Source: a virus. From it: a stretch of 56,120 nucleotides of DNA. Location of the stretch: positions 1-56,120 of IMG/VR virus record IMGVR_UViG_3300046331_000690; one strand, given 5' to 3'. Numbering within the stretch: the stretch's first letter is position 1; each line of letters begins with the position of its first letter. The notes beneath the pieces were generated by a model that had not been told where the DNA came from, did no database searches, and was given only the letters and a program-made list of their open reading frames with translations. A program made the position numbers and the translations under genes. Shown one piece after another: positions 118 to 54,648 of the stretch.

Positions 118-250
118 CGCACAGGGCTTAACGCAGGTGTGGTATTAGATAGGTGATTTACAGCCCTTGTACTTGGCTTGGATATATATGCTGCCGATAG
201 CCTGATTGTCAAGCCACACTTGCGGTAAACCCAATGTTGGCTGCTGTACG
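113..250 (+). repeat. attC-like site A
   Basis: The left core ATTAAC (113-118) carries the stop codon of the preceding gene. Arms 124-142 and 214-232 pair at 16 of 19 positions, followed by AAT and the presumed crossover G236/T237. The loop shares two blocks with site E: GATTTACAGCCCTTGTAC (154-171 here) and the segment at 196-215. The mismatches fall where those of the other sites do. Confidence 0.8.
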
Positions 251-266
251 GTAAAAAAATAAAGAA

Positions 267-518
267 ATGACAAAAGAAAGTATCATAGAATTACAAAAGA
301 TTGATTGCAACTGTAATGATTGTAAACACCTTGTCCGTGATTTTGAAAAATATAAATTATTTGATGGTTTATATACAAATGAGAAGGGTCAGGTTACAAG
401 TCCATCACATCGTGTCAATTATGGTAATTGTCAAAAATTAAATAAGGCGGTATCGTTTATTCCGAATACCTGTCAATTAGAAACGCAAGGCTGCTTTGAA
501 CATCGGAGAGTAGTATAG
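267..518 (+). CDS. Cassette 1: small cysteine-rich protein of unknown function
   Basis: The protein has 83 residues with six cysteines: C14-x-C16-x2-C19 near the N-terminus, then C55, C69 and C76 before a terminal CFEHRR. The spacing suggests a small zinc-binding fold, but I cannot name a family or a reaction. It starts 30 bp after the cassette boundary (G236/T237) behind an A-rich leader with no Shine-Dalgarno or clear promoter, so it is likely expressed by read-through. Its stop TAG (516-518) lies inside the left core of site B. It is the only gene in this cassette. Confidence 0.7.
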   Translation: MTKESIIELQKIDCNCNDCKHLVRDFEKYKLFDGLYTNEKGQVTSPSHRVNYGNCQKLNKAVSFIPNTCQLETQGCFEHRRVV

Positions 519-659
519 CGTACAACGCCTACGGCTTGGCGAAGTGGGGGAATTATACCCACAAAAGCCGATTAGAATTACTAATGTTTAATAACAGATA
601 AAAGATGATAGAAGCAGTCAGCCCCCATTTTGCCAAACCGATGTTACCTGCTGGTGCGG
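513..659 (+). repeat. attC-like site B
   Basis: Left core 513-526 matches the complement of the start of cassette 1 (236-249) at 10 of 14 positions. Arms 533-550 and 622-639 pair at 14 of 18. The crossover is expected at G643/T644. The loop has GATTAGAATTAC, shared with site F and nearly with site D. The site runs into the 5' end of the methyltransferase frame, and the ATG at 641-643 straddles the crossover point. Confidence 0.8.
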
Positions 660-2008
660 TTGGTTTACGAGTACTTTCCTTATTCGATGGAATGAGCTGT
701 GGGCAACAAGCACTTGAAAGAATTGGTGTAAATGTTTTGGAATATTACGCAAGTGAAATTGATAAACACGCTATTGCAGTAACGATGCACAATTACCCAA
801 ATACAAAGCAATTAGGAAGCGTTATTGATGTGGATGGATATACACTACCAAAGATTGATTTATTGATTGGTGGAAGCCCTTGCCAAAGTTTTTCATTTGC
901 TGGCAAACGAAAAGGAATGAGTACAAAATGCGAAACAGAAATATTGACTTTAGAACACTATTTGGAATTGAAAAATGAAGGTTACGAATTTGAAGGGCAA
1001 AGCTATTTATTTTGGGAGTATATGAGATTGCTTAACGAAGTCAAACCAAAATACTTTTTACTTGAAAATGTACTGATGGGCGAAAAATGGGAAAAGATAT
1101 TGAGTAAAGCAATTGGAGTAAAACCAATTGAAATAAACTCTGCTTTAGTATCTGCTCAAAATCGAAGAAGATTATACTGGACAAATATTGGAATGCAACC
1201 AATGGGATTATTTGGAGATTTAGAAAACATAATACCGCAACCAAAAGACAAAGGTATTTTGTTAAAAGATATACTTGAAAGTGAAGTTGATGACAAATAT
1301 TATTTGAGCCAACAACGAATTGAAACAATGCTGAAAAGTGAAAGAAGTGTGCCTTATGTTGATGAAGAAACAAAGAAATTCAATTGCTTATTGGCTGTAT
1401 ATAATAAAATACCTACTGATGGGCAATATGTGGTACACAACACAATGCCACGAAGTAGCACAACTGGCAAAGGCGGTAGCGGACCACTAAGCCGAAATGA
1501 TGGTAAAACCTATTGCTTAGATACTGGAAGCACAAATGCAATTGAATTAGTTGGATGTATAAAGTTTGGCAGAACAGATGAGGCAAAGGAAATGAGAAAA
1601 GAAAGTATGAAAAATGGCAAAGATTATACACCATTTCAAGCCAAAGAAATAACTGGTATTGATTACGATAAAATGAATACGCTTACTACTGCAATAAATA
1701 AAGATAACCTGGTAATGCAATTAAATCCATCAACTGAAAGTAATGGATGCCAACCTTACCAACAAAATAGAATTTATGATACAGATGGAATTAGCCCCGC
1801 CTTAATGGCTCAAATGAGTTGTGGCACTCACGCCATAAAACACGAAAGAAAAATAAGAAGATTAACACCTTTAGAGTGTGAAAGACTGCAAACCGTTAAA
1901 TATGGATATACAAGTGTAGCTTCTGATAGTCAGCGATACAGAATGTTAGGTAATGGATGGACTGTTGATGTTATTGCTCACATATTATCTTACGGAGAAT
2001 GGTCGTAG
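641..2008 (+). CDS. Cassette 2: DNA cytosine-5 methyltransferase
   Basis: This enzyme transfers a methyl group from S-adenosylmethionine to cytosine C5. It shows motif I (LSLFDGMSCG), motif IV with the catalytic Cys (GGSPCQSFSFAG), motif VI (LLENV), motif VIII (AQNRRRLYW) and motif X (MLGNGWTVDV), in normal order over about 455 residues, so it looks complete. An upstream in-frame ATG at 605 lies in the palindrome of the previous cassette. I prefer ATG 641, whose G is the last base of that cassette, which means insertion would create the start codon. The stop TAG (2006-2008) begins the left core of site C. No restriction enzyme gene is beside it, so a role in hiding phage DNA from host restriction is the simplest guess. 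Confidence 0.9.
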   Translation: MLPAGAVGLRVLSLFDGMSCGQQALERIGVNVLEYYASEIDKHAIAVTMHNYPNTKQLGSVIDVDGYTLPKIDLLIGGSPCQSFSFAGKRKGMSTKCETEILTLEHYLELKNEGYEFEGQSYLFWEYMRLLNEVKPKYFLLENVLMGEKWEKILSKAIGVKPIEINSALVSAQNRRRLYWTNIGMQPMGLFGDLENIIPQPKDKGILLKDILESEVDDKYYLSQQRIETMLKSERSVPYVDEETKKFNCLLAVYNKIPTDGQYVVHNTMPRSSTTGKGGSGPLSRNDGKTYCLDTGSTNAIELVGCIKFGRTDEAKEMRKESMKNGKDYTPFQAKEITGIDYDKMNTLTTAINKDNLVMQLNPSTESNGCQPYQQNRIYDTDGISPALMAQMSCGTHAIKHERKIRRLTPLECERLQTVKYGYTSVASDSQRYRMLGNGWTVDVIAHILSYGEWS

Positions 2009-2149
2009 CACTTGCAGGTAACGGTGGGCATATTACGCAGGTTTGGAGGCTTTGCAATCAGATCCAAACCAGCACTAAAGCCCGGCTCTGCAAGCTGACC
2101 AGGATATGACTTCCAGCCAAACTTGCGTAAATGCCGTTGTTGTGTGCTG
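2006..2149 (+). repeat. attC-like site C
   Basis: Left core 2006-2022 matches the complement of the cassette 2 start (643-659) at 13 of 17 positions. Arm 2027-2046 pairs with 2117-2135 with one unpaired A on the left and one mismatch. The crossover is expected at G2139/T2140, chosen because 2139-2148 is the exact complement of the core that closes cassette 3. Arms and spacers resemble site G. Confidence 0.8.
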
Positions 2150-2219
2150 TTTTTCTTAGGGTTTTACAACTATCTTTAAAATAATTGTAAATAAATTAGG
2201 AAAATACAATTTGACGGCA

Positions 2220-2227
2220 TATATTTG
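2220..2227 (+). promoter_or_regulatory. Possible cassette 3 promoter (-7 box TATATTTG)
   Basis: TATATTTG fits the Bacteroidetes TAnnTTTG -7 box and lies 19 bp before the ATG at 2247. The -33 region is weak: TTAG at the right distance rather than TTTG. This cassette and cassette 7 appear to carry their own promoters. Confidence 0.4.
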
Positions 2228-2246
2228 TATTACAAAAGCAAAAAAC

Positions 2247-2501
2247 ATGACAAAGACAATTTCACAATTACGCAAAGAAGCAAACAAAGCACCTAAGTAC
2301 GTTTTAAAAATGGACGGACTTGATTTATTTGTTGCCGACAAACAGGCTTTAACTGGCTGCAATATCACTGAAGATGTAAAGAAGGCTAAAATGTTTTCAG
2401 TTGGTTTTGATAATGAAGAAATGAAAGCTGGAGTATGGACGGCAGTTGCACAGTTAATGACTAATAACAAAGATGTAAAGTTTGAAGTAATGTATTTATG
2501 A
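2247..2501 (+). CDS. Cassette 3: small protein of unknown function
   Basis: The protein has 84 residues (start MTKTISQLRKEANKAP), is soluble and mixed charge, and has no recognisable motif. An ATT-type or upstream start at 2211 is possible, but the -7 box at 2220-2227 favours ATG 2247. Its TGA overlaps the ATG of the next gene (ATGA), so the two are translationally coupled and it may be a partner of the methylase-like protein. I do not assign a function. Confidence 0.65.
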   Translation: MTKTISQLRKEANKAPKYVLKMDGLDLFVADKQALTGCNITEDVKKAKMFSVGFDNEEMKAGVWTAVAQLMTNNKDVKFEVMYL

Positions 2502-3169
2502 GAATAATAGTAGGATGCGAAGAAAGCGGCGAAGTACGTGATGCCTTTATAAAATTAGGGCATGATGCAATTAGCTGCGATTTAAAGCCATCAAGGAACG
2601 GCGGGCCACATTATCAGGGCAGCATCTTTGATATAGACTACTCTGATTTTGATTTGGCTATAATTCATCCACCATGCACTTACTTATGCGTTACTGCAAA
2701 TAAATGGCTTAAAGACCAACCTGCCAGAAAAAGCGGGGCATTAGTTGGAGCAGAAAGGCGGCAAGCCGTAAAAGAGGCACATGATTTTTTTATAGCCTGC
2801 TGGAAATTACCAGTTAAAAGAATGTGTATTGAAAACCCTGTAGGCGTAATGAGTTCATTATGGCGAAAGCCGGATCAAATCATACAACCGTGGCAATTTG
2901 GGCATAATGAACCAAAAAAAACCTGCCTTTGGCTGCGTGGCTTGCCACTATTAAAACACACTAAAATAATGGAACCGGAATATCATATAACAAAATCCGG
3001 GAAACGATTGCCTAAGTGGTATGCTTATGCTGATAAAAGCAAAGGGCAGGCACACAGGGCAGAAATTAGAAGCAAAACATTCACAGGCATTGCGGAAGCA
3101 ATGGCAAACCAATGGACAAATGAAAAGAAGATTATTTCACCTGTACTTGAAATCAACTTTGGAGCATAA
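2498..3169 (+). CDS. Cassette 3: methylase-like protein with PPC and ENP motifs
   Basis: This 223-residue protein has three blocks recalling C5 methyltransferases: an N-terminal VGCEESGEVRDAF (motif I-like), IIHPPCTYLC (PPC, the motif IV nucleophile loop) and CIENPVGVMSS (ENP, motif VI-like). The GxNxR/QxRxR motif VIII and a normal target recognition domain are not visible, and it is about half the usual length. Short phage proteins of this kind are commonly annotated as DNA methylases, but activity is not assured. It overlaps the previous gene by four bases, and a small frame overlaps its end. Confidence 0.7.
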   Translation: MRIIVGCEESGEVRDAFIKLGHDAISCDLKPSRNGGPHYQGSIFDIDYSDFDLAIIHPPCTYLCVTANKWLKDQPARKSGALVGAERRQAVKEAHDFFIACWKLPVKRMCIENPVGVMSSLWRKPDQIIQPWQFGHNEPKKTCLWLRGLPLLKHTKIMEPEYHITKSGKRLPKWYAYADKSKGQAHRAEIRSKTFTGIAEAMANQWTNEKKIISPVLEINFGA

Positions 3170-3341
3170 ATATTATGGCTCTTTAAAAGCGATTTTTATT
3201 GACACTACAAACCCGGATTTAGGAGTAAGCAAATTTACCCTGGACAGGTTTGATTTTGTCCAGCCCTACGAAAATGAAGTTTGTGTAATTCGTAAAGGCT
3301 TTATGCAGTCCACCGGCGATATTAGGACTGCTACCAAATAG
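3159..3341 (+). CDS. Cassette 3: possible small protein with TTG start
   Basis: A 60-residue frame overlaps the end of the methylase-like gene and ends at TAG 3339-3341, the first bases of the left core of site D. Every other cassette ends this way, which supports a real gene here. The start is uncertain; TTG 3159 is the first candidate outside the overlap-only part. The sequence (IDTTNPDLGVSKFTLDRFD) looks protein-like but is not recognised. Confidence 0.45.
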   Translation: MEHKYYGSLKAIFIDTTNPDLGVSKFTLDRFDFVQPYENEVCVIRKGFMQSTGDIRTATK

Positions 3342-3482
3342 CACACAACGGATTGGGGCTTGTAGCAGTAGTGGATCTATAGCACTACTGTTCAATACAC
3401 CACTAAAGCTGATTAGAAGTACACAGCTCAAAACTTGCACTTCTGCCCCTATTGCTACAAACCCTTGTTAGCGGTAGTACGG
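3339..3482 (+). repeat. attC-like site D
   Basis: Left core 3340-3349 is the exact 10-base complement of 2139-2148 at the start of cassette 3. Arms 3356-3374 and 3446-3464 pair at 16 of 19. The crossover is expected at G3467/T3468. The loop shares AGCACTACTGTT and CACTTCTGCCCC with site F, so these two sites are close relatives. Confidence 0.82.
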
Positions 3483-3520
3483 TAAAATAAATAAGGGTGT
3501 AAAAATTAAAAACAGAAAAA

Positions 3521-3853
3521 ATGAAAAAAGCATTTATCAAATGGATGTCCAACCAAAACTGGATTTACAACTTAGCAGTAAAATTAATTGCTAACAGAAT
3601 TGTACACGGTCAAAATCAACTTACGCCTAAATATCTAATGGATAGAGGATGGGTTGAAGAAGAAGGATTTTTTGTTGAGTCAAACATTAAAGACCGTGAT
3701 AAGATTTGGATAAAGTTTGAAAACCACTATTTCAGAATTTGGCACGGCAAAGAAAGAACCTTTATCGGTTTAGAAAGCAAAGTTGAATGGTTTGAAAACT
3801 ACTATCTACTTGCTCACGGTGATAATGGTCGCTACCAACTTGCAGGTGTGTAG
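3521..3853 (+). CDS. Cassette 4: phage protein of unknown function
   Basis: The protein has 110 residues, with LTPKYLMDRGW, then a segment IKFENHYFRIWHGKERTFIG followed by a WFENYYLL block. This resembles short Bacteroidetes phage proteins of unknown role that carry the same order of blocks; no enzyme motif is visible. It starts 53 bp after the cassette boundary behind an A-rich leader. The leader shares GTACGGTAAAA with cassette 1. The stop TAG (3851-3853) lies in the left core of site E. Confidence 0.7.
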   Translation: MKKAFIKWMSNQNWIYNLAVKLIANRIVHGQNQLTPKYLMDRGWVEEEGFFVESNIKDRDKIWIKFENHYFRIWHGKERTFIGLESKVEWFENYYLLAHGDNGRYQLAGV

Positions 3854-4006
3854 TATTACCGCTAACGAACAGGGCTTGGCTGCACGTACCGGAATTTGAA
3901 ATACTGAATTTCAGCCCTTGTACAAAAGCCCGGTTATGTACCGAAGTTGATAGTCAAATTGTCAAGCCGGTATTGCGCCAAACCCCATGTACTACGTAGT
4001 ATTTTC
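3850..4006 (+). repeat. attC-like site E
   Basis: Left core 3851-3866 matches the complement of the cassette 4 start (3467-3482) at 13 of 16. Left arm 3872-3892 has two more bases than right arm 3967-3985, leaving an unpaired T and C like the extrahelical bases of attC sites. The crossover is expected at G3989/T3990, and the right core is GTACTAC instead of GTT.... Its loop matches that of site A. Confidence 0.82.
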
Positions 4007-4051
4007 TTGTGCTGCGGAGCATTTTTAAGTAACAATTTAAAAACTATAACA

Positions 4052-4447
4052 ATGATAACAAGAGATTTATTCAGACTTCCTTTCGGAAACCACAAGTTAA
4101 CAGATGGGATTTATACTTTCTTGCTTCAAAAAGAAAATTCCGATTATCTCCGAAAGACTACTTACAGCATAAGGCAATACGACTCTTTATCGGGAGGTTC
4201 GGTTACATTTTATGAAGATATTGACGATGTTTTTGATAACACAAGCCGATATAAGCAAAAGGTTTTAAAATATAGAGTATTCATTACGGGAATGTCTTTT
4301 GGTGGTAGGGATGATTTATGGAATGTACTTTACAACTTAAAATACGTTCCTAAGTCCTCTTATAAAGAGTGGTTAAAAAAAGTTGAAGGAATAATGTCCA
4401 TCCAAATTGAAAAACAAATGTGTGGCGTTGGCGAAAATATTACGTAG
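4052..4447 (+). CDS. Cassette 5: protein of unknown function
   Basis: The protein has 131 residues, starting MITRDLFRLPFGNHKL. It is soluble, Tyr/Phe-rich in the middle and Lys-rich near the end, and I recognise no family. A longer frame from 3947 would run through the palindrome of site E, so ATG 4052 after the A-rich leader is preferred. The stop TAG (4445-4447) is inside the left core of site F. It is the only gene in the cassette, and no promoter is seen. Confidence 0.65.
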   Translation: MITRDLFRLPFGNHKLTDGIYTFLLQKENSDYLRKTTYSIRQYDSLSGGSVTFYEDIDDVFDNTSRYKQKVLKYRVFITGMSFGGRDDLWNVLYNLKYVPKSSYKEWLKKVEGIMSIQIEKQMCGVGENIT

Positions 4448-4586
4448 TACGGTTCGGGGCTTTAAGAAGTTGGGGTTTCAAAGCTCAAATGTTCGTTTAA
4501 GCACTACTGTTGATTAGAATTACAAAAGTTGGGGTTTATCACTTCTGCCCCAATTTCTTAAACCCCTTGTTATGCCATCGTTGCGG
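4433..4586 (+). repeat. attC-like site F
   Basis: Left core 4433-4450 matches the complement of the cassette 5 start (3989-4006) at 17 of 18 bases, including the atypical GTAGTAC/GTACTAC core. Arm 4456-4475 pairs with 4548-4566 with one unpaired left C and one G/T position. The crossover is expected at G4569/T4570. Confidence 0.85.
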
Positions 4587-4626
4587 TTTTCAAGGCAGGA
4601 AGTTTAACTTAAAAACAATTTAAAAA

Positions 4627-5343
4627 ATGAAATTAATAGCACTTGGCGACACTCACGGCAGAACAGATTGGAAGCAAATAGTTTCTAATACTGAATTTGA
4701 TAAAGTAATATTTATTGGCGACTACTTTGATACTCACGAAGATATTACACCTGAACAGCAGAAGTCAAATTTTGAAGATCTGATTAAATACAAAATAGCC
4801 AATATGGATAAAGTTGTTTTACTTTTTGGCAACCACGACTATCATTATTTAAAAACTGTAAATGAAACTTATAGTGGTTTTCAAGAATGGCACAGGACAG
4901 ATATAGCAGAGATGTTACACAAAGCATTAGGTGCTGATTTAATGCAAATGTGCCTAATTGATGGTAATTACATTTTTAGCCACGCAGGTGTAACAAAAAC
5001 TTGGTTGAAAAATACTGGTTATACAGGCGAAGACCCATTAGAATTATTTATAAATGATTTGTTTAAATATCAGCCATTGGCTTTTAGGTTTACAAGTGGT
5101 GTTAATCATTCTCCTTATGGTGATGATATTTGCCAAACGCCAATATGGGTTCGCCCACAAAGTTTGTATGCAGATTGTTTGGATAATTTTATTCAAGTTG
5201 TTGGGCATACTACACAAAAGCAATTAAAGATTATAGACGACAAGATAGTATTGATTGATACAATCGGAATGTCTGGTCAATTTCTTTGTATCACTGATGG
5301 TGAAATGTCCGTTTTGGAACTATCACGTAGCAATGGGGCATAA
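4627..5343 (+). CDS. Cassette 6: calcineurin-like metallophosphoesterase
   Basis: This 238-residue protein has the metal-binding blocks of the superfamily in order: GDTHG (D-x-H), IGDYFD (GDxxD), LLFGNHDYHY (GNHD) and later IFSHAG and VVGHTT (GH). It is expected to hydrolyse phosphate esters with two metal ions. Phage members include lambda-type protein phosphatases, but the substrate here cannot be told from sequence (protein, nucleotide or RNA 2',3'-cyclic ends). It starts 57 bp into the cassette. The stop codon TAA (5341-5343) is supplied by the CATAAC that ends the left core of site G. Confidence 0.88.
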   Translation: MKLIALGDTHGRTDWKQIVSNTEFDKVIFIGDYFDTHEDITPEQQKSNFEDLIKYKIANMDKVVLLFGNHDYHYLKTVNETYSGFQEWHRTDIAEMLHKALGADLMQMCLIDGNYIFSHAGVTKTWLKNTGYTGEDPLELFINDLFKYQPLAFRFTSGVNHSPYGDDICQTPIWVRPQSLYADCLDNFIQVVGHTTQKQLKIIDDKIVLIDTIGMSGQFLCITDGEMSVLELSRSNGA

Positions 5344-5485
5344 CGCTGGGCATATTGCGAAGTTGGGGTAATAGAATTACTGTCGCTTGGTAGCTTATTG
5401 CACAACTGCTCAACAAAGATTTAAACTCCGATTGCGGTTCCGTCAAGCCCCAATTTAGCAAATGCCTATGTTGGCTGCTGCTATT
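5326..5485 (+). repeat. attC-like site G
   Basis: The left core, ending GGCATAAC (5337-5344), complements GTTATGCC at the start of cassette 6 (4569-4576), with a second matching block GCAA/TTGC. Left arm 5348-5368 pairs with 5448-5466, with two extra left bases. The crossover is expected at G5470/T5471. Arm ends (GGGCAT...) match site C. Confidence 0.8.
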
Positions 5486-5512
5486 AGGGTTCTCAAAATA
5501 ATGTCCTAAATA

Positions 5513-5544
5513 TTTGGTGTAACCAATAAGTTACACTACATTTG
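5513..5544 (+). promoter_or_regulatory. Cassette 7 promoter with operator in the spacer
   Basis: TTTG (5513-5516), a 20-bp spacer, then TACATTTG (5537-5544) is a near-ideal Bacteroidetes promoter. The spacer is filled by the perfect inverted repeat GTGTAAC-CAATAA-GTTACAC (5517-5536). A bound dimer would block RNA polymerase, so this looks like a repressed or self-regulated promoter. Confidence 0.65.
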
Positions 5545-5558
5545 ATAAAACATTTATT

Positions 5559-5807
5559 ATGGCAACAGTAACAAAAAACGCAAAAGAACTGAGTTTTAAA
5601 CAAATAACTATTGGTGAATTGCAACACGCTGATTTTTTTTCTCTTAATGGTAAATCATTTTTCATCTTTTCAAGAGTGGAAGAAATCGGATTAGGATTAG
5701 TTTCTATTCATTACCTATCAACGGTGAAATGGCAATCGTATGACAGGGTAATCAGGAATGATAAAAAGGTGTTTGTTGCACCATTAGGGAGGCATTATGA
5801 AGGATAA
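5559..5807 (+). CDS. Cassette 7: small protein of unknown function
   Basis: The 82-residue protein is mostly beta-prone (SFKQITIGELQHADFFSLNG, then FFIFSRVEEIG), suggesting a small barrel, with no catalytic motif. It follows a promoter with a built-in operator by 14 bp and overlaps the next gene by 11 bp. Two small co-transcribed genes behind an operator recall toxin-antitoxin or repressor pairs, but neither protein matches a family I know, so this stays an inference. Confidence 0.65.
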   Translation: MATVTKNAKELSFKQITIGELQHADFFSLNGKSFFIFSRVEEIGLGLVSIHYLSTVKWQSYDRVIRNDKKVFVAPLGRHYEG

Positions 5808-5994
5808 AATATTTAACTACATAAATGCTGCTGCTTTCTTTTCTGAATACTTGCCACACATTAAAAGCTATAAACACAAATTACGTGGCAAAAATGGTAG
5901 AGGAAACATTGTTGACTTTACAGATAAAGAAAAAAAGGAAATAAACGCTGCCTTGAAAAAACTCTTTAAAGAATTAGGGGGTGTCGCAAAGTAG
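5797..5994 (+). CDS. Cassette 7: small basic protein of unknown function
   Basis: The protein has 65 residues, Lys-rich, with a probable C-terminal helix (DKEKKEINAALKKLFKELGG). It is coupled to the preceding gene by overlap. The stop TAG (5992-5994) falls in the terminal core GTAGCAGCCAAC. The function is unknown; nucleic-acid or partner binding would suit its charge. Confidence 0.6.
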   Translation: MKDKIFNYINAAAFFSEYLPHIKSYKHKLRGKNGRGNIVDFTDKEKKEINAALKKLFKELGGVAK

Positions 5995-6002
5995 CAGCCA
6001 AC
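5990..6002 (+). repeat. Terminal core closing cassette 7, without a stem
   Basis: AGTAGCAGCCAAC matches the complement of the cassette 7 start (5470-5482) at 12 of 13 bases, so it is the left core of a site. No arm or second core follows before the recombinase at 6041. The site is either truncated, fixing this cassette in place, or is a simple resident recombination site. Confidence 0.6.
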
Positions 6003-6040
6003 ATCTTTTTTAATGCACTCTCTTTAAAAATCAACATTTT

Positions 6041-6922
6041 ATGAATAGGAAAAATGAATTATTACAGCAATTTAAAAATGAATTGAGTTTGAGAAATTAT
6101 GCTATGAATAGTATAGATACTTACAGTGGGTATCTATCACAGTTTTTTGAAGCAATGAAAGGCAAACCAAAGCCATTGCAAATTGAGGAGATTAAACAAT
6201 TTTTGTTATCCATCACCAACATGAATACCAGGGCAATGTTTGTAAATAGCATCCGTAATTTTTATAGCTACATTTTAAAAACGCCTTTGAGTTTAGATGA
6301 TATTCCTTATCCACGTAAGACAAGTTATTTGCCACAAATACTAAGCATACAAGAGGTAGATCGAATGATGAAATGTGTTGTAAATATTAAGCATAAAGCC
6401 ATTTTGCAAACCATGTATAGTTGCGCTTTGCGTATAAGTGAAGTGCCAGAAATTGAATGCAATACTAATATATGTCACTTGGATAGCAGCAGAAAAACAT
6501 TGCTGGTGAAAGGTGCCAAGGGTTTTAAAGATCGGTATGTACCAATACCTATTCCTACCATTATATTGCTTCGCAATTACAGAATAGCAGATAATAAAGG
6601 AAAGTGGTTATTTATGGGGCAAAATCAACAAAAATATTCTGTGAGAAGTATTCAGCAGATTTTTCACCGTGCAAAAGAAGCTGCACATATTGCCAAAAAA
6701 GTAACGCCACATTCATTAAGGCATAGCCGCCTTACTCACCTATGCGAAGCTGGGATGGATATATACAAGCTAAAGGAATTTGCCGGGCACAACAATATTA
6801 AAACAACTGAAATTTATTTGCACCTCAGTAAATCATCACTGGTAAATAATACCGAGCTGGCAGACCTGATCATTGCACAGTCATTGCATAACAGTGAATT
6901 ATTAATAGAATTAGGAAATTAA
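6041..6922 (+). CDS. Tyrosine recombinase next to the cassette array
   Basis: This 293-residue recombinase has an N-terminal SAM-like core-binding domain (about 1-85) and a catalytic domain with R131 (CALRISE), K160 (KGAKGFKDR), H224-x2-R227 (HSLRH), H250 (FAGH) and Y259 (EIYLH). It is therefore expected to be active. R131 and H224 are 93 residues apart, as in XerC/XerD (about 96). The integron IntI1 distance is about 131 because of the attC-binding insertion, so this is not a standard IntI. The phage has a separate integrase at 40983-42200 beside attP. The gene points the same way as the cassettes and lies after the array, unlike classic integrons. I infer that it moves the cassettes; other roles such as dimer resolution are possible. 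Confidence 0.88.
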   Translation: MNRKNELLQQFKNELSLRNYAMNSIDTYSGYLSQFFEAMKGKPKPLQIEEIKQFLLSITNMNTRAMFVNSIRNFYSYILKTPLSLDDIPYPRKTSYLPQILSIQEVDRMMKCVVNIKHKAILQTMYSCALRISEVPEIECNTNICHLDSSRKTLLVKGAKGFKDRYVPIPIPTIILLRNYRIADNKGKWLFMGQNQQKYSVRSIQQIFHRAKEAAHIAKKVTPHSLRHSRLTHLCEAGMDIYKLKEFAGHNNIKTTEIYLHLSKSSLVNNTELADLIIAQSLHNSELLIELGN

Positions 6923-6923
6923 A

Positions 6924-7364
6924 ATGAGAACACCCTTCACTTTAGCTGATCTTAAAAAAACGCCTTGTGCGGCAATTAATCAGCACCTCTTTGTTGCGCC
7001 GGTTAAGAAAAAAGAAAAGAGCCTTGGCAAGCAAAAAACATGGATTCAGTTTAGATTACTCCAGTTTGCAGAAAGCAACAAACTGGAGCTTAAAGAAGAA
7101 CATAGATTTCACGATGAGCGCAAGTGGCGTTTCGATTGGGCAATACCTGAGCTGCATATAGCATTTGAATACGAAGGTATCTTTTCAGCTAAAAGCCGCC
7201 ATACTACAGCCAAAGGTTTTACAGGTGATGCAGAAAAATATAACGCTGCTCAATCTGCAGGATGGATAGTTTACAGATACACTGCAATAAACTACTTAGA
7301 TTTGGTAACTGATCTAAATAATTTGCCCGGTATTATTCAAAAAGAAAAAGATTTATTCAAATAG
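6924..7364 (+). CDS. PD-(D/E)XK-type endonuclease-like protein
   Basis: This 146-residue protein has a likely nuclease core from about residue 58: EEHRFHDERKWRFDWAIPE, then IAFEYEG (E-x-E), a Lys in DAEKYNAA and a closing GWIVYRY. This order of E, D, E-x-E, K is that of small VRR/PD-(D/E)XK nucleases used by phages in recombination or junction processing. It begins one base after the recombinase stop, so the two are probably co-transcribed. The substrate is not known. Confidence 0.65.
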   Translation: MRTPFTLADLKKTPCAAINQHLFVAPVKKKEKSLGKQKTWIQFRLLQFAESNKLELKEEHRFHDERKWRFDWAIPELHIAFEYEGIFSAKSRHTTAKGFTGDAEKYNAAQSAGWIVYRYTAINYLDLVTDLNNLPGIIQKEKDLFK

Positions 7365-7378
7365 AGTAACTTTGACTT

Positions 7379-7933
7379 ATGGCCAAAAAACAATTGACCG
7401 ATTTAAAACAGGATCCGAGCAACTTTAATCAGCATTCTCAATTTGGTATGGGCCTACTGGAAAAGTCAATAAGGAAGTTTGGTTTTGTAGAAGCTGGCCT
7501 TATTAGTGAAGATGATGTTATCTGCTCAGGAAATGCCAGGCAGGAGACCGCAGTTAGTATTGGAATGGAAGATGTGCAGATAATTGATATAGATGGTAGT
7601 AAACCCGTTTATCTACGAAAAAAAGGACTAAAAAGCGGCTCACAGGAATTTAAAGAACTTGGATTGGCTTTAAATGCTGTAGGTAAAGCTAATGTGGTAT
7701 TGGATGCTGAATTGATTGAAGCCGAATTGGGGGATGCTGTTTGTGAGGAGTGGGGAATTGAAAAAGAATTAAACTATAGTAGTAAAAATAAAGAAATTGA
7801 TTTAGATGAAAATGAACGTTTTACTATTGAATTAAATTTTACTGCTGATAATTTTTTCAGCATTAAAGAGGCAATTGCTGCCAAAGGGATAACTGCTGAA
7901 TCTATTCTACTTAAAGCTTTGAATATTGACTAA
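7379..7933 (+). CDS. ParB/sulfiredoxin-like protein beside the terminase
   Basis: The protein has 184 residues. The N-terminal half (ITDLK-like start, then SIRKFGFVEAGLISEDDVICSGNARQ in part) has the ParB-like pattern of a 'location' loop followed by a GN.R motif. Phages often have such a ParB-N domain protein, sometimes linked to DNA methylation or nuclease activity, just before terminase genes. The C-terminal acidic part (EIDLDENERFTIELNF) is a separate small domain. It overlaps the methyltransferase by 8 bp. DNA binding is likely; a nuclease role is uncertain. Confidence 0.65.
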   Translation: MAKKQLTDLKQDPSNFNQHSQFGMGLLEKSIRKFGFVEAGLISEDDVICSGNARQETAVSIGMEDVQIIDIDGSKPVYLRKKGLKSGSQEFKELGLALNAVGKANVVLDAELIEAELGDAVCEEWGIEKELNYSSKNKEIDLDENERFTIELNFTADNFFSIKEAIAAKGITAESILLKALNID

Positions 7934-28807: not shown

Positions 28808-28880
28808 AGCAGTGTAGAGCAGCTGGTAGCTCGAAAGTCTCATAATCTTTAGGTCGCTGGTTCGAGTCCAGCCACTGCAA
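28808..28880 (+). tRNA. tRNA-Met (anticodon CAT)
   Basis: A cloverleaf folds with D stem GAGC/GCTC, anticodon stem 28834-28838/28846-28850 and loop CTCATAA (anticodon CAT at 28841-28843), and T arm GCTGG-TTCGAGT-CCAGC. The acceptor stem has six pairs (GCAGTG/CACTGC) and an A-A mismatch at the outer position. No CCA is encoded (the 3' end reads ACAA). The three G-C pairs of initiator tRNA are absent, so it is elongator Met or, if modified, Ile(CAU). It lies in the late operon just after promoter 2. Confidence 0.8.
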
Positions 28881-28895
28881 CAAAAAATTTAAACT

Positions 28896-40751: not shown

Positions 40752-40988
40752 ATGCGCTATATGTTCACTGCTATTATTGCAATTCCATCCTACCATATTG
40801 GTTTTTTAGACATTTTTGAGGTTGACAACAATACATATTTTGCAAACCCTAAAAACTCATGGGAAAGCCTACACTATCCTCCAGAGTATGTACAGTTTTA
40901 CTTTTCAAAAATTGGTTCAACATGGAAAACTGAACCACATGTACTTCAGAATATTTTAGAACAAGTTATTGAGCAAGGGGGGTTATGA
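40752..40988 (+). CDS. Small protein of unknown function between lysis and integrase
   Basis: The protein has 78 residues (start MRYMFTAIIAIPSY), with aromatic-rich WESLHYPPEYVQFYFSKIG. It lies after the lysis terminator and overlaps the 3' end of the minus-strand integrase by 6 bp. No promoter is clear. The protein-like sequence supports a gene, but no family or function is seen. Confidence 0.45.
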   Translation: MRYMFTAIIAIPSYHIGFLDIFEVDNNTYFANPKNSWESLHYPPEYVQFYFSKIGSTWKTEPHVLQNILEQVIEQGGL

Positions 40989-42200
40989 AAAACTATTTGC
41001 CACCTTTTTAAGCCGTTGGTGTTGCCTTTCTTTTTCTCCATGTGCATAGTGCGATAAAGTTATTACAGGTGTTGTATGGCCAGCCATATCAGCTGCAGAC
41101 TGAATATCCAAAGCCGCTGCTATTTCATCTAAATTAGAATGCTTTAAACTATAGAAATCAGCAGAAATGTTAAGTCCACCTTTTTCAACTGTAGCTTTTA
41201 CGTGTGTCCTCCAGCGCCGGGTAATTTGCTCTGGCCTGATCTGTTTTACTCCTGGTTTAAGGCCAACACTAAATATAAAATCTTCTGGTTTTGCATCTTT
41301 CAGCAATTCTTCCCATAGGGGGAGTATATTATCTTTAATCGTTCTTAGCTGTTCATTTGTTTGTTTACCTTTTTTTACTAATAATTTGTATTGCTGTTTC
41401 TCAAGATAAATATCTTTTCTTTGAACCCTTAATAATTCAGTTTCCCGGCTGCCAGAATGAAAGAAAATTTGCATAAAACGCCAAAAGGAATAAGTTTTTA
41501 TTTTTAAATGATTATTTATTTTGGTTCTTTCTTCAGCTGTAAGGGTCTGTCTTATCCTTTTTATCACTTTCTTCTTTTTTAAATCTTTCACAGGATTTAT
41601 TTCTGTAGCCTCCATTTCTACCAATTCAGAGAATAGTATCATTAAGTATGATCTAAATTTATTGTAACGGTCATTGCTGAACTTAGGATTGATAATGGCC
41701 ACCTGCTCCAACAGTGCTTTAATATGCTTTCTTCTTACATCTCCAATTGTTAAAGCAGTAATATGCATTTGTCTGGCAGCGGCCTCTAATGCTTTAATTA
41801 CACATTTGATATCCTCAGTAGTATGTGGTTCAACTTTCAATTTTGGTAAAACCTCCCAAAAAGCTTCTATAAATTTTGTACCTGGATGAATCTCGTGGTT
41901 CAATACTACCGGTTTAATAAATTCTCCAGTAATAGGGTTGTATCCTTCATATTGAAGCATCATCAATAGCTCATCCATTACTACCTGTACAGCAGATCTT
42001 CTTTCCTGTAATGTTTTAAAGCGATTGATTTTGCTTTTCAGAATTTTTAAACAACCCTTTTTATATTTTTCTTTGAAAGCAGGGTCATGAAAATAGTATT
42101 GAATGTACCATTCCTTTTTTACAGAAGCAGATTGTGTTTTCCAGTTTTTCGGGAAAACAGTAGGTTCGCTGCAGGTGCAGCCATTTGGTAGTTGTAGCAT
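40983..42200 (-). CDS. int: Phage integrase (tyrosine recombinase)
   Basis: This 405-residue, Bacteroidetes-type integrase has a short N-terminal arm-binding part, a SAM-like core-binding domain (about 110-215) and a catalytic domain. Its residues are R252 (HSGSRETELL), a Lys near 277, YSLKH (Y350...K353 in place of the usual H-x2-R), H375 (MAGHTT) and Y385 (LSHYAHGE). The Y and K changes are known in this subgroup. Its start codon lies in an inverted repeat and faces attP, so self-control is likely. It would integrate the phage into a host tRNA-Met gene. Confidence 0.92.
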   Translation of the reverse strand: MLQLPNGCTCSEPTVFPKNWKTQSASVKKEWYIQYYFHDPAFKEKYKKGCLKILKSKINRFKTLQERRSAVQVVMDELLMMLQYEGYNPITGEFIKPVVLNHEIHPGTKFIEAFWEVLPKLKVEPHTTEDIKCVIKALEAAARQMHITALTIGDVRRKHIKALLEQVAIINPKFSNDRYNKFRSYLMILFSELVEMEATEINPVKDLKKKKVIKRIRQTLTAEERTKINNHLKIKTYSFWRFMQIFFHSGSRETELLRVQRKDIYLEKQQYKLLVKKGKQTNEQLRTIKDNILPLWEELLKDAKPEDFIFSVGLKPGVKQIRPEQITRRWRTHVKATVEKGGLNISADFYSLKHSNLDEIAAALDIQSAADMAGHTTPVITLSHYAHGEKERQHQRLKKVANSFS

Positions 42201-42452
42201 AAAAGTATTAACCTTTTTATTAACTTTTTATGCTACCGTGCAAGGGAAACTAAAACTTAAATTAGCTGAAAACCTTATCAGATAAGGCTTTCAGCTTTGT
42301 ATCGGGGAGCAGACTTGAACTGCCGACCTTCGGGTTATGAATCCCCGTTTTAAATGTTATATTTTTTGAAACCCTTGCTGGTAGCGGTTTTTAATTTTGT
42401 GATTTTAGTCCGAAACGTCCAATTTTTATACAGTATTAACTTTTTTATTAAC
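42194..42452. other. attP: attP: tRNA-Met 3' half flanked by arm-type repeats
   Basis: Bases 42301-42339, read on the minus strand, are the 3' half of a tRNA-Met: anticodon loop with CAT, variable loop GAAGGTC-like, T arm GGCAG-TTCAAGT-CTGCT and acceptor CCCCGAT. A 20-bp repeat GTATTAACCTTTTTATTAAC (42205-42224) recurs at 42433-42452 with one change and looks like integrase arm sites on both sides. Another inverted repeat (42194-42206 / 42223-42236) covers the integrase start. A 33-base near-perfect palindrome (42264-42296) abuts the core. Confidence 0.8.
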
Positions 42453-42457
42453 CGTAA

Positions 42458-42850
42458 TTACTTCTTCTTTTTGCTTAGTAATTCAATATTCTGCTCCATT
42501 CTTACCATGTCTTTTTCAAGGCCTGATATTCTTTCTTTAAGGCTTTTTACCTGACTTTCTAAATTTGAAAACATCATCATCTCTCCTTGGCCAGTTAATA
42601 ACCAGGTTGGAGAAACTTTATAAAAATGCAATAGTCTTCCAACTGCTTCAAGGGTAAATGAATTTTTATTTAAAGAGTCCTGTGAATTTCTTATCCGGGT
42701 AATATTCGTACTTGCCATGCCGATTGTTTCTCCAATTGCCTTATCTGTTACCTTTCCTTTTGATCTATCTCGAAGAATTGAATCGATCGCTTGTAAAAAT
42801 CTTGCATTGATCTCGTCTGTGAAATGATATTTGTAGGTTATTGGTTCCAT
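42458..42850 (-). CDS. Helix-turn-helix regulator with C-terminal coiled coil
   Basis: The 130-residue protein has an XRE-type HTH at about 36-60 (VTDKAIGETIGMASTNITRI) with following segments as in small phage repressors (LEAVGRLLHFYKVSPTWLLT). It ends in a long coiled coil (ESQVKSLKERISGLEKDMVR) and a Lys tail. It lies next to attP, in the same direction as integrase. It may control integrase or act with the LexA-like repressor. The operator is unknown. Confidence 0.7.
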   Translation of the reverse strand: MEPITYKYHFTDEINARFLQAIDSILRDRSKGKVTDKAIGETIGMASTNITRIRNSQDSLNKNSFTLEAVGRLLHFYKVSPTWLLTGQGEMMMFSNLESQVKSLKERISGLEKDMVRMEQNIELLSKKKK

Positions 42851-43500: not shown

Positions 43501-44253
43501 TCAATTTCTATTGATAATTATTGAGTTTGTATTGCGTTTTATAACGCCGGTAACTATAAAAATATTGATGATTTCATTTACGGGTATATCAAAAGGGGGA
43601 TAGGCAAGTTTGCCCAGCCTGGCTCCTTCATCAAAAAGCATGGTATTATCTGAGTAGCAGGTAAAAAAATCACTGTGGCTTTCGTCATTTTTATAAAAAA
43701 TCCTTTTGACCATTCTTCTGTCTGCAGTTTCAATAACATAAACCTCTCCGGGCTCTATAAATTTACTTCTGCATCTAACTAATCCAATTACACATCCAGG
43801 AGGATAATTAGGGATCATGCTGTTCCCGTAAATTCTTATGGCTGCTTCACTATCATTTAATAAATCCCCAATATAAATTGTGCCGGCTGGAGCCTGAATA
43901 GGCATGATTTCAGAATTAAGGTTACCGGCTGATGCATCTGCATCGTAAAATGGAATATGTTTTTTTTCTTTTCCATTTTTTAAATCATTTCTTTTTACAT
44001 GGTATGGAGCAGTAGGTTCATTTAAGACATTTTCATTTAAATCAGAATTGGTGAGCATTTCTCCAACACCATGAAGTAGCCAAATCTCATTCAGTTTTGG
44101 ATAGGTAGATTTTATTTTAGAAAGGTTTTTTGGACCAATAGAAGTTCTAATATTATTTACAGAACCATTAGAAATATCACAGTTCTTTTCAAATTGAGAT
44201 TGCCCAATTTGGAGAGTATTTATGAATTCTATTAGTCTTTCTTTAACTGACAT
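43501..44253 (-). CDS. CI/LexA-like phage repressor with S24 peptidase domain
   Basis: The 250-residue repressor has an N-terminal HTH (GQSQFEKNCDISNGSVNNIR, about 17-36) followed by the typical KIKSTYPKLNEIWLLHGVGE. The autocleavage site is ASAGN (A109-G110). The C-terminal S24 domain has S145 (YGNSMIPNYPPG) and K183 (RRMVKRIFY), the Ser-Lys dyad of LexA/CI proteins. It keeps the early promoter at 44329-44361 off and would be cut upon DNA damage. It is divergent to the early genes. Confidence 0.9.
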   Translation of the reverse strand: MSVKERLIEFINTLQIGQSQFEKNCDISNGSVNNIRTSIGPKNLSKIKSTYPKLNEIWLLHGVGEMLTNSDLNENVLNEPTAPYHVKRNDLKNGKEKKHIPFYDADASAGNLNSEIMPIQAPAGTIYIGDLLNDSEAAIRIYGNSMIPNYPPGCVIGLVRCRSKFIEPGEVYVIETADRRMVKRIFYKNDESHSDFFTCYSDNTMLFDEGARLGKLAYPPFDIPVNEIINIFIVTGVIKRNTNSIIINRN

Positions 44254-51849: not shown

Positions 51850-54648
51850 ATGATTGATATAACAGAAACGCCGATTGGCTATCAGGTTGAATTTGAATAT
51901 AAGCCTTGGATAGTGGATGCAGTAAAAAGAATACCCGGCGCACATTTTAAACAGTTAGACGGTAAGAAATTCTGGCACGTTCCTTTAAGTTCCAGTAATG
52001 CTTTATTAAATTGGGCTGCTAAATTAGGTAAGACACCAAAGGCACAAACTGCTGTAGAGATTGGAGAAATAGATCCGCTTCCAGAGCTTACAATTGATAT
52101 TCCACTAAAGATGAAAATGTTTCCGTACCAAGAAAGCGGCGTGGCTTACAATCTTGAAAAAAAGACGGCAATATTAGGGGATCAGCCTGGCCTGGGTAAA
52201 ACGATTCAAGCCATTGCAACTGCTGAGGCTTCCGGGTGTAAATGTATTTTAATTATTTGCCCTGCTACATTAAAAGAAAACTGGAAAAGAGAGATCGAGG
52301 TAAAGTGGACAAATAGCAAAGCATTGATCTTAAGTGATAGCTGTAAAAATACATGGCCAACATTTTATAAGGTAGGTATTGTAAAGTATTTCATCACGAA
52401 TTATGAGAGCTTAAAAAAGTACTTTGTTGAGGGGGTAAATATACCAACAGGCAAAGACGGCAAACCAGTTCCATTGCGTTTAAATCACATCAAATTTAAA
52501 GATACCATTGATCTTTTTGATTGTGTAATTATAGACGAAATCCACAAATGTTTCCCTTATGAAACTAAAGTATCAACAGAAATAGGGCTTTTAGAAATTG
52601 GGCTTATAGTAGAACAAAAGCTGGATATAAAAGTTGCAAGCTTTGACCACAAAAGCAATTCAATAGTATTTAAGAAAATAATAAATCACTGGACAAATGA
52701 GCTTAAAGAAAGAAGTATTTACAAAATCAGGCACGAAAACGGACTGCTCTACGCAACTGGAAATCATAAAATCTATACCGCCAGCGGCGAGTACAAAGAA
52801 GTACATAAAATCAAAAGTGGAGAGATGTTGTATATGTTGCAAGAAAACCTTTCTGACAAAAAAGGCAGGAAAGGCAACTGCAAAATACTGCTCCAGGAGT
52901 TGCTTTGCAAAGACAATAAATGCAGATCCGGAAATAAGGAAGAAAATGGACTTGAACAAAAGAAAGCCGGAAATAGAAAAAATATGTGCTTATTGCTCAG
53001 TAAGTTTTTCTATAAAATCCAACGGCAAGGAATCTGCAAAAATTCGGTTTTGCAGTCAAAGCTGCTCGGCAAAATGGAGAGTAAGAACACCGGAGGCTAT
53101 TGCTGCAAATCAAACGCAGGAGAAAAGGGAAAAAGCAAGAGTGAATGCACTTCGTATAATGAACGAAGGTTCAAGAAGGCAAAAAACTTCACAAAGAATG
53201 ATTGCAAAAAATCCTATGCACAATCAGGAAACAATAGAAAAGCTAAAAAAGGTAATGAGTGGTCGCACATTTCTGGCAAGGGGTGGCAATGGCCAATTAA
53301 CAAAGCAGCAAATAATGCTTTGGGAGGCAATAGGGCTACCGGAATCAGCAATGGAGTTTGCTATACCAACAAGGATCGTGAAGAGTTTATTCAAAAGCCT
53401 ACCAAATTCATACAAGGTAGATGTTGCAATAGAAAATATAAAGCTTGCAATAGAAGTGGACGGGAGTACCCACAGATTAAAAAAATGGAAATTTCTGGAC
53501 GCAAGAAAAACAGAAGTGTTAAATGCGTTAGGGTGGAAAGTATTGAGGTTTACAAACCAACAAGTAACGGAGAATTTGGATTCAGTTCTATTGTCAATAA
53601 AAGAGTTTATGATTTAGAGGTAGCTGATACACATAATTACTTTGCAGATAACATTTTAGTATCAAACTGTAAGGATGGGAAAACAATGCAAAGTAAGCTT
53701 ACAATGGGCATTGCAAAGGGTAAGGAGTACATTTTAGGATTGACAGGAACGCCTGTTGTAAACAAGCCTATTGACTTAATACCGCAACTGCACATCATTG
53801 GCCGCCTTCATAATTTCGGTGGGTACAAAGGCTTTGTAGATAGATACTGTCAAGGTAGAAATCAAGCAAGTAATTTAAAAGAATTGAATTACTTGTTGCA
53901 TAAAAACTGTTTTTATCGCAGGGAAAAGAAAGATGTATTAAAAGATTTGCCCGATAAAATGAGGGAGATTATCAAGTGTACCATCAGCAACCAGCGAGAG
54001 TATGACAAAGCCGAAAATAATCTGGTAAACTATCTCAAAGAAAATTTAGGTAAGACAGATCAGGAGATTAGCGTAAGCCTACGTGGTGAGGTTATGGTAA
54101 TGATTGGTATCTTAAAAAAGATAGCAGCAAAAGGTAAAATAGCAGATGTAATTGAACACATTGAGGAAGTAGTAGAGGCAGGGGAAAAGATTATTGTATT
54201 TGCATGGCACAAGGAAGTAATAGACGAACTGAAAAAAGTAATCACTGGCGCCGTTACCGTTGTAGGTAACGATAGTATGGAAAGCAGACAAAGATCTGTT
54301 GACAGCTTCCAGAATGATCCTAAAGTACAAGTTATCCTATGTAATATTAAATCCGGCGGTGTAGGTATCACGTTGACAGCTTCCAGCCGTGTAGCCTTTA
54401 TTGAATTACCATGGCATCCTGCAGACTGTGAGCAATGCGAAGATAGAGCACATAGGATTGGTCAAAAAGATAGCGTACAGGTGTCTTACTTCTTAGGTGA
54501 TGGAACTATTGATGAAAAGATTTACGAGATCATCGAGAATAAAAGAAACATTGTAAACCAGGTTACAGGGGCAAGTGATGATGTGGAAACGGTAGAAAAG
54601 AACATGGTCGATCAGTTGATTGGTATTTTTTCAAAAGCTAAAAATTAA
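51850..54648 (+). CDS. SNF2-family helicase interrupted by an intein
   Basis: The 932-codon precursor gives a 559-residue helicase after splicing. The N-terminal domain (about 1-85) is HARP-like in layout. Walker A is GDQPGLGKT (K117), and motif II is DEIHK (229-233), where the intein interrupts, resuming with CKDGKTMQSKL. Later motifs: LGLTGTPVVNKP (III), IIVFAWHKEV, ILCNIKSGGVGITLTASSR (V) and QCEDRAHRIGQ (VI). It is SMARCAL1-like: likely an annealing helicase or fork remodeller for phage replication. Because the intein splits the ATPase box, the helicase is inactive until splicing. Confidence 0.92.
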   Translation: MIDITETPIGYQVEFEYKPWIVDAVKRIPGAHFKQLDGKKFWHVPLSSSNALLNWAAKLGKTPKAQTAVEIGEIDPLPELTIDIPLKMKMFPYQESGVAYNLEKKTAILGDQPGLGKTIQAIATAEASGCKCILIICPATLKENWKREIEVKWTNSKALILSDSCKNTWPTFYKVGIVKYFITNYESLKKYFVEGVNIPTGKDGKPVPLRLNHIKFKDTIDLFDCVIIDEIHKCFPYETKVSTEIGLLEIGLIVEQKLDIKVASFDHKSNSIVFKKIINHWTNELKERSIYKIRHENGLLYATGNHKIYTASGEYKEVHKIKSGEMLYMLQENLSDKKGRKGNCKILLQELLCKDNKCRSGNKEENGLEQKKAGNRKNMCLLLSKFFYKIQRQGICKNSVLQSKLLGKMESKNTGGYCCKSNAGEKGKSKSECTSYNERRFKKAKNFTKNDCKKSYAQSGNNRKAKKGNEWSHISGKGWQWPINKAANNALGGNRATGISNGVCYTNKDREEFIQKPTKFIQGRCCNRKYKACNRSGREYPQIKKMEISGRKKNRSVKCVRVESIEVYKPTSNGEFGFSSIVNKRVYDLEVADTHNYFADNILVSNCKDGKTMQSKLTMGIAKGKEYILGLTGTPVVNKPIDLIPQLHIIGRLHNFGGYKGFVDRYCQGRNQASNLKELNYLLHKNCFYRREKKDVLKDLPDKMREIIKCTISNQREYDKAENNLVNYLKENLGKTDQEISVSLRGEVMVMIGILKKIAAKGKIADVIEHIEEVVEAGEKIIVFAWHKEVIDELKKVITGAVTVVGNDSMESRQRSVDSFQNDPKVQVILCNIKSGGVGITLTASSRVAFIELPWHPADCEQCEDRAHRIGQKDSVQVSYFLGDGTIDEKIYEIIENKRNIVNQVTGASDDVETVEKNMVDQLIGIFSKAKN
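52549..53667 (+). mobile_element. Intein in helicase motif II
   Basis: The intein has 373 residues. Block A starts at Cys1 (CFPYETKVSTEIG), block B is YATGNHKIYT (TxxH), block F is RVYDLEVADTHNYF and block G is ILVSN followed by Cys+1 (53668-53670). The residue before the final Asn is Ser rather than His, as in some inteins. The middle (about 52850-53520) in this frame is Lys/Asn/Gly/Ser-rich with no domain. The same DNA in another frame encodes a homing endonuclease. The insertion is in the most conserved site of the host protein, as usual for inteins. Confidence 0.88.
52817..53617 (+). CDS. Zinc-finger Vsr-like (EDxHD) homing endonuclease nested in the intein, other frame
   Basis: The frame is +1 relative to the helicase, with ATG 52697 or, more likely, GTG 52817 as start (266 residues from GTG). 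Two treble-clef-like zinc units come first: RCCICCKKTF...YCSRSCFAK and CAYCSVSF...FCSQSCSAKW. A basic middle and a C-terminal nuclease follow: YKVDVAIENIKLAIEVDGST, then HRLKKWKFLDARK and GWKVLRFTNQQV. The E-D-H-D order fits the EDxHD Vsr-like homing endonucleases described with fractured genes and split inteins. The frame stops at 53617, just before intein block F. Composition is normal in this frame and odd in the intein frame, so I judge this the real protein. Confidence 0.82.
   Translation: MERCCICCKKTFLTKKAGKATAKYCSRSCFAKTINADPEIRKKMDLNKRKPEIEKICAYCSVSFSIKSNGKESAKIRFCSQSCSAKWRVRTPEAIAANQTQEKREKARVNALRIMNEGSRRQKTSQRMIAKNPMHNQETIEKLKKVMSGRTFLARGGNGQLTKQQIMLWEAIGLPESAMEFAIPTRIVKSLFKSLPNSYKVDVAIENIKLAIEVDGSTHRLKKWKFLDARKTEVLNALGWKVLRFTNQQVTENLDSVLLSIKEFMI

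Follow-up and report, generated by a model that had tools for sequence, protein, structure and literature searches.

The viral DNA analysed here, a stretch of 56,120 nucleotides (IMG/VR record IMGVR_UViG_3300046331_000690) that is called the window at its full length, carries the 3′ half of a tRNA-Met gene between two near-identical repeats beside an integrase gene. This raises the question of which state of the phage was sequenced, which host gene it enters, and how its integrase would be controlled from a position behind a host tRNA. Mobile DNA frequently docks at tRNA genes, and the way in which such elements keep a busy tRNA promoter off their own integrase has been studied in detail only lately (ICEKp1, 2026). 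With a probability of about 0.85, the locus can be read as the tRNA-Met attP of a temperate phage with an arm-binding integrase, at which the host tRNA would be rebuilt with a 3′ half and a hairpin, H1, of phage origin, and the integrase would come to lie insulated behind the tRNA.

The attachment site in the window

Positions 42194-42452 form an intact attP, in which the tRNA-Met 3′ half is placed between two arm sites lying roughly 110 nt to either side of the anticodon loop. On the minus strand, the order is the outer (P) arm pair (42452-42433; GTTAATAAAAAAGTTAATAC, with two GTTAATA copies 12 nt apart), about 90 nt, the core (42341-42300; TTCATAACCCGAAGGTCGGCAGTTCAAGTCTGCTCCCCGATA), which extends from the anticodon loop to the discriminator base, the trinucleotide CAA, and then H1 (42296-42264), a putative substitute tRNA terminator with a 15-pair stem, one G-U pair and a loop of 3 that begins 3 nt 3′ of the tRNA half. 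This is followed by H2 (42236-42194), an 11-bp inverted repeat (GTAGCATAAAA/TTTTATGCTAC) that encloses the inner (P′) arm pair (42224-42205; GTTAATAAAAAGGTTAATAC) and contains the integrase start codon (42200-42198). A search of both strands of the window for GTATTAACYTTTTTATTAAC, allowing up to 3 mismatches, returned two sites, 42205-42224 and 42433-42452, both exact, while shuffled sequences averaged 0.05 matches, two never occurring together in any of 100 shuffles. Neither ARAGORN nor Rfam called a tRNA on the core, as expected of half a tRNA.

The start of the tyrosine integrase gene (405 aa; 40983-42200, minus strand; PF00589 E 9e-10; PHROG integrase) falls within one flank of the attP. 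On the far side reside a small HTH regulator gene (42458-42850, minus strand; PHROG transcription regulation), which ends next to the outer arm and points toward the attP, a 205-aa ORF with no assignment, and an S24/CI-like repressor (43501-44253, minus strand; PF00717; PHROG CI-like repressor) that is co-directional with the HTH gene and the integrase. The sequence-only reading of this locus, which had described a tRNA-Met 3′ half between near-identical arms with phage genes beyond both sides, is therefore borne out: both arms are exact to GTATTAACYTTTTTATTAAC, the core is identical to host tRNA-Met genes, and the integrase lies on one side with the HTH regulator and the repressor on the other. 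That reading had passed over the putative replacement terminator, the inverted repeat around the start codon and the architecture shared across the family.

Elsewhere in the window, a plus-strand ORF (51850-54648) for an SNF2-type helicase has a match to an intein splicing domain at residues 258-606 (PF14890), and a complete phage tRNA with a CAT anticodon is found at 28808-28881 (plus strand), in which, by eye, A1 faces A72, the D arm is initiator-like and the anticodon stem lacks three G-C pairs.

The host target site

An exact search for TTCATAACCCGAAGGTCGGCAGTTCAAGTCTGCTCCCCGATA found the 42-nt half in 4 of 294 Chitinophagaceae genomes, one copy each, always inside a complete tRNA-Met gene, and in none of 395 genomes drawn evenly over the phylum. 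All four genes are empty, the 150 nt read past each being free of phage sequence. Both the claim of an intact attP with a tRNA-Met target and the proposed check, a host tRNA-Met with the same 3′ half, thus find their counterpart in these genomes. The acceptor sequence ATCGGGG that had been predicted is one base off, since the 5′ strand reads GTCGGGG in the four empty hosts and in a relative (L069), giving a G1-U72 wobble. In two of the hosts (L033, L034) identity to the window extends over 51 nt (42344-42294) and ends just inside H1; what follows the tRNA genes there is, by eye, unlike H1. With respect to prophages bounded by the half, which had also been proposed as a check, the relative L069 is a prophage in a tRNA-Met gene with the identical 42-nt half, but among the genomes searched there is no lysogen of this exact phage, only relatives being seen integrated.

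An initiator tRNA was considered as the target and rejected, as in the empty host genes position 1 pairs with 72 (G-U) and the anticodon stem contains A31-C39 (by eye), the criteria applied being those which we take to distinguish initiator tRNAs. The attP probably belongs to a temperate phage of Bacteroidota, the host probably being a member of the Chitinophagaceae. A 3′ tRNA fragment that begins in the anticodon loop and rebuilds the gene places the site in class A of the Islander scheme, that of tRNA anticodon-loop attachment sites, which is common according to its description (2083 islands; PMC4383910).

Relatives and the two ends of their prophages

Relatives of the integrase were collected from a genome scan (10 loci) and from viral contigs (20 loci, some of them overlapping earlier matches); at E ≤ 1e-40 they occur in 29 of 394 Chitinophagaceae genomes and in 2 of 395 genomes across the phylum. 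This left 34 distinct members with a readable leader, including one with a broken integrase frame (L014). The set omits the duplicates L055, L057, L058, L059, L068 and L085 (of L007, L010, L008, L015, L009 and L012, respectively), L002 (identical to the window over its stretch), L016 (a fragment from the genome of L014), L032 (a near copy of L026), records whose first base is no more than about 25 bases from the integrase (L004, L005, L018, L022-L024), those with no N-terminus (L013, L027-L029, L031, L078, L079, L082-L084), L067 (with only about 60 nt of its leader unmasked), L080 (for which a matching half was not found) and L030, whose half lies beyond the scripted range; by eye, L030 too combines a tRNA half with a trailing hairpin and with arms of period 12. 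L021 served only for comparison with L020 and in counting tRNAs and promoters.

The order of tRNA, H1, period-12 arm pair and integrase start is largely kept throughout the 34 leaders (arms in 32, a significant H1 in 28), and this with tRNAs of seven isotypes and with arm motifs that differ. At 24 of 35 loci (the 34 leaders plus L021), ARAGORN called a complete tRNA immediately upstream of the integrase on its strand, namely Met (9), Arg (4), His (4), Asn (3), Phe (2), Lys (1) and Val (1), and no complete tRNA at the other 11.

Both ends could be mapped in five prophages, with attL-attR distances of 41-63 kb: measured from the tRNA at attL, attR lies at 51 kb in L007, 41.5 kb in L008, 48.6 kb in L010, 41.5 kb in L011, and at both 48 and 63 kb in L009. 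Of these, L009, L010 and L011 come from the isolates Deminuibacter soli, Chitinophaga tropicalis and Flavobacterium sedimenticola, respectively. At attL of these relatives, a complete tRNA is followed by phage sequence; at attR, after the phage arm region come some 90 nt, then the tRNA part from the anticodon loop on, and a different hairpin with a T run (by eye), which would be the displaced terminator of the host. The comparison of the two ends indicates that in the five mapped prophages the phage replaces the 3′ half of the tRNA together with the tRNA terminator. In line with a crossover at the anticodon loop, an attP form (L020) and an attL form (L021) are similar from this loop on, with 19 of 60 positions identical leftward and 88% identity over 1454 nt rightward.

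In L010, the halves of the tRNA-Arg(TCT) at attL (5808-5882) and at attR (G004:C4 near 4440) differ in the T arm, and therefore integration changed letters of the tRNA; the shared sequence extends back into the D arm. In L081 (1335 and upstream), a tRNA-Arg half lies beside the integrase, and another tyrosine recombinase gene, probably of a neighbouring element, ends 98 nt before the anticodon loop.

Source of the sequenced DNA

A contig from another sample (L086) runs from position 52077 to the end of the window, through 24 further bases, and on from position 1 to 7733 (99.98% and 99.74% identity, respectively), and a 15.7-kb contig (L002/L087) is collinear with window positions 55303-39609 across the att site. 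Because the former joins the two ends of the window and the latter runs through the attachment site, the source genome appears to be closed or circularly permuted, with a size of about 56,144 bases. The bases missing from the window, which is a near-complete circle, are those at 4045-4068 of L086, where they close its two ends. The sequence-only reading had concluded from the junction itself that the source must be the free phage form or a plasmid-like state; L086 does support a closed or permuted form, but the inference was too strong, as tandem insertion also yields attP-like junctions.

Tandem insertion, in which the end of one prophage is joined to the start of the next at a single tRNA, does occur at these sites. 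L009 has two successive attR sites 15 kb apart, and in L076 an outer arm motif as in the second L009 element is joined to another inner motif. As an origin of the junction in the window it is nevertheless improbable, since neither window end shows a host junction (as judged from a partly annotated set of window ORFs), L086 closes the circle, and both arms of the window share one motif, although a tandem of identical copies would be indistinguishable by sequence from a closed phage. Very hard to credit is the proposal that the phage breaks the host tRNA-Met and substitutes its own tRNA-Met gene at 28808-28881, in the manner of phages with tRNA-dependent lysogeny. Such phages likewise have their attB in a tRNA gene and carry a tRNA of the disrupted isotype (PMC10865867), and the window phage does carry a tRNA of the same anticodon class (CAT); however, their core is about 10 bp long and fails to restore the tRNA, whereas here an attP core of at least 42 nt rebuilds the gene without a single change in four hosts.

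With respect to the second tandem element in the L009 genome (G003:C11, 824061-839066; L046, L047), it is located at the same tRNA-Met, carries primase-like and MobC-like genes (by eye), and has a different period-12 arm motif, TTTGATACA.

Arm sites and hairpins of the integrase leader

Between the end of the tRNA and the start of the integrase, a repeat of at least 7/8 matches at a lag of 12 nt was found in 32 of the 34 leaders (all except L015 and L026), while any other lag from 8 to 21 was reached by at most 3 of 34, and shuffled leaders scored at lag 12 with a mean of 1.8 and a maximum of 6. The motif itself varies (GTTAAYAA, GCTAACAA, CTCTAACA, GTTACCAA, TGTCACAC, TTCATCAC, CGTTGACG), the 12-nt period being constant. 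The repeat starts 62-82 nt after the tRNA end in 33 of 34 leaders (52 nt in L006) and 20-72 nt before the integrase ATG. In 6 of 10 attP-like forms, the motif recurs as an outer arm, again at lag 12, preceding the anticodon loop by 92-124 nt; of the others, L020, L077 and L081 yielded no outer arm and L076 has another motif. At attR, 4 of 6 sites have a lag-12 repeat of at least 7/8, while those of L008 and L010 reach 6.

H1 is significant against shuffles in the window (p 0.005) and at p ≤ 0.05 in 28 of 34 members (the exceptions being L006, L026, L060, L061, L062 and L064), and in 33 of 34 it begins at a distance of 1-7 nt from the tRNA end. Scored without favouring G-U, its mismatches comprise 14 G-U, 1 A-C and 2 others. 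Since G-U pairs greatly outnumber A-C, while a DNA palindrome would give both alike, this bias points to selection on the RNA of the tRNA/integrase strand. In the window, the T run is weak, with 4 T in 12 nt at the 3′ side. Rfam matches on H1 (MIR7502, sno_ZL63) were far below their gathering scores and were discarded.

A predicted RNA fold of 42310-42180 yields both H1 and H2, with a z score of −4.0 and none of 200 shuffles as stable. H2 was evaluated in 33 members (the 34 leaders minus L026), the arm register of the window, L008, L063 and L073 having been shifted by hand 3-4 nt to the right before the search; it has a p of 0.0033 in the window and reaches p ≤ 0.05 in 19 of 33, the other 14 not being significant. 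Its mismatches (G-U 7, A-C 2, others 9) show a bias that is not significant and suggestive only. Counting non-significant stems as well, no more than 10 nt separate the integrase ATG from the 3′-arm end of the best stem in 31 of 33 members, with L074 and L076 as exceptions.

A putative variant tyrosine recombinase

The integrase matches PF00589 with 39 bits (cut-off 27.1). Its structure model (pLDDT 87.5, pTM 0.53) has an N-terminus with strands at 14-16, 32-38 and 50-54 and a helix at 64-84, and in a fold search it matches lambda Int, Tn1549 Int and XerA, mostly over residues 101-404, while searching solved structures by sequence brought up no integrase. Identity of the relatives to the window integrase is 34-57% (alignment A2). 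R252, K277, Y350, K353, H375 and Y385 are invariant in all 34 aligned integrases, a set which differs from the 34 leaders in that it includes L018, L022 and L024 and excludes L014, L077 and L081.

At the position of the box, where we would presumably expect H-x-x-R-H, these proteins have Y-S-L-K-H, so that Arg II would be Lys and His II Tyr, an assignment that is by motif and not by residue-level superposition. The canonical pentad R-K-H-R-H plus Tyr is thus incomplete, and the protein is filed here as a putative variant arm-binding tyrosine recombinase; it is best read as a lambda-like integrase with its gene insulated behind the host tRNA. According to PMC8138268, IntDes has a Tyr at the position of the first His, and Arg I is only weakly conserved in IntCTnDOT; the word lysine is absent from the main text of that paper. 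A literature search on catalytic Arg/Lys variants returned no report within a coverage that leaves out most subscription journals and is no proof of absence.

Transcription and proposed control of the integrase

TAnnTTTG, which we take to be the −7 element of Bacteroidota, is found within 70 nt upstream of 22 of the 24 complete tRNAs (1.5 in shuffles). From 35 nt after the tRNA to the integrase start it occurs in none of the 34 leaders (1.4 in shuffles), a result for a single motif with a chance expectation of just 1.4 that is no proof of an absent promoter; it is likewise absent within 150 nt upstream of the HTH, 205-aa and S24 genes of the window. An HTH-like gene pointing at the attP near the outer arm is present, by eye, at 11 of 16 att sites: in the window, L003, L006 (where it ends 271 nt before the anticodon loop), L017, L019 and L020, and at attR of L007, L008, L009 (the first), L010 and L011. 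Seven of the 11 have a C-terminal motif resembling W/Y-x-x-G-x-E-x-x-x-F-R.

These observations suggest a scheme in which the N-terminal domain of the integrase would bind the arms, its catalytic domain would swap strands at the anticodon loop, and the tRNA would be rebuilt from the phage 3′ half and the phage terminator H1. Two transcription units might thereby exchange terminators: in the free phage, the HTH side would read into H1, while in the lysogen the tRNA would read into H1 and the HTH side into the host terminator. The integrase would lie behind H1 in both states, having no consensus promoter of its own, and would probably be a product of low-level read-through, from the tRNA promoter when integrated and from the HTH side when excised, with H2 and arm-bound Int as possible further restraints. 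Regulation of the integrase by read-through of H1, by H2 and by the arms is what we infer from this arrangement.

Two points of this scheme can be read differently. A promoter within the leader might serve the integrase, with Int controlling it from the inner arm in the manner of KplE1 and the tRNA promoter playing no role, which is a genuine possibility that we lean against: the tRNA-then-integrase shape is that of KplE1 and the arms start at a short distance before the ATG, but TAnnTTTG is missing after H1 from all leaders, which speaks against that promoter type alone. Only a little short of even odds is the view that H2 acts as double-stranded DNA, bound by a dimeric regulator or an accessory factor, rather than as an RNA hairpin. 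Its recurrent sequence TGTAGCAT, its long loops and the lack of significance of the 7 versus 2 G-U/A-C bias would be in favour of this, while the folded RNA does form the stem with the start codon inside, and the close spacing of the start to the 3′ arm extends even to members with non-significant stems. Returning to control by read-through and H2, all elements may be combined into one compact module, an extension that is tentative and, taken as a whole, doubtful. Here, recombination in the loop would swap the terminators of the tRNA and of the lysogeny operon such that both stay terminated, the integrase would be made only from leakage through H1, and H2 would hide the start codon and hold the arms in its loop, so that the same stretch would serve as DNA for Int and as an RNA fold against Int, in a clade with Lys for Arg II.

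Comparison with known systems

A close parallel is ICEKp1, in which the tRNA terminator is displaced upon integration, transcription of the integrase comes from the tRNA promoter, and stem-loops in the leader attenuate it (PMC13023037). Shared features are an integrase downstream of the tRNA on the same strand, a displaced tRNA terminator and stem-loops in between, and as in ICEKp1 the host terminator appears moved to the far end, where a different hairpin follows the core at attR of the relatives (by eye). In contrast to ICEKp1, the elements described here are phages of Bacteroidota and not ICEs, they are known from sequence alone, and they have a terminator-like hairpin directly after the tRNA as well as an inverted repeat at the start codon that holds arm sites. 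The anatomy of the family matches that of ICEKp1, in Bacteroidota phages, with these two elements added.

For IntS of KplE1, PMC2951348 reports tRNA-then-integrase as the commonest shape (736 of 1273), with predicted autoregulation and an attL that overlaps the integrase leader. The same order and orientation are seen here, all 24 complete tRNAs (of 35 loci) being on the integrase strand, whereas no consensus promoter was found in the leaders. Cellulophaga phage phi46:1 has an integrase with 40% identity and period-12 arms flanking half a tRNA; it differs in that the half is of tRNA-Phe (by eye), H1 is weak (p 0.46) and H2 is not significant. Riemerella phage RAP44 and its kin share the Y-S-L-K-H box and a small HTH gene upstream, with an integrase of 23% identity, but the 341 nt inspected about the start of the integrase showed no half tRNA. 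Within the literature coverage given above, with the same reservation, nothing was found on anticodon-loop attP sites in Bacteroidetes, and, judged by title and abstract start, nothing on this family under arm sites with terminators, Bacteroidetes tyrosine-recombinase prophages, rho-independent terminators or Chitinophagaceae prophages. The attP is ordinary in principle, and it is the conserved leader and the active site that set the family apart from known systems.

The family amounts to dozens of natural replicates in Bacteroidota, with one layout, seven tRNA isotypes, shifting arm motifs at a fixed 12-nt period and an unusual active site. Integrases that reach the anticodon loops of many tRNAs could serve as genetic tools for Bacteroidota.
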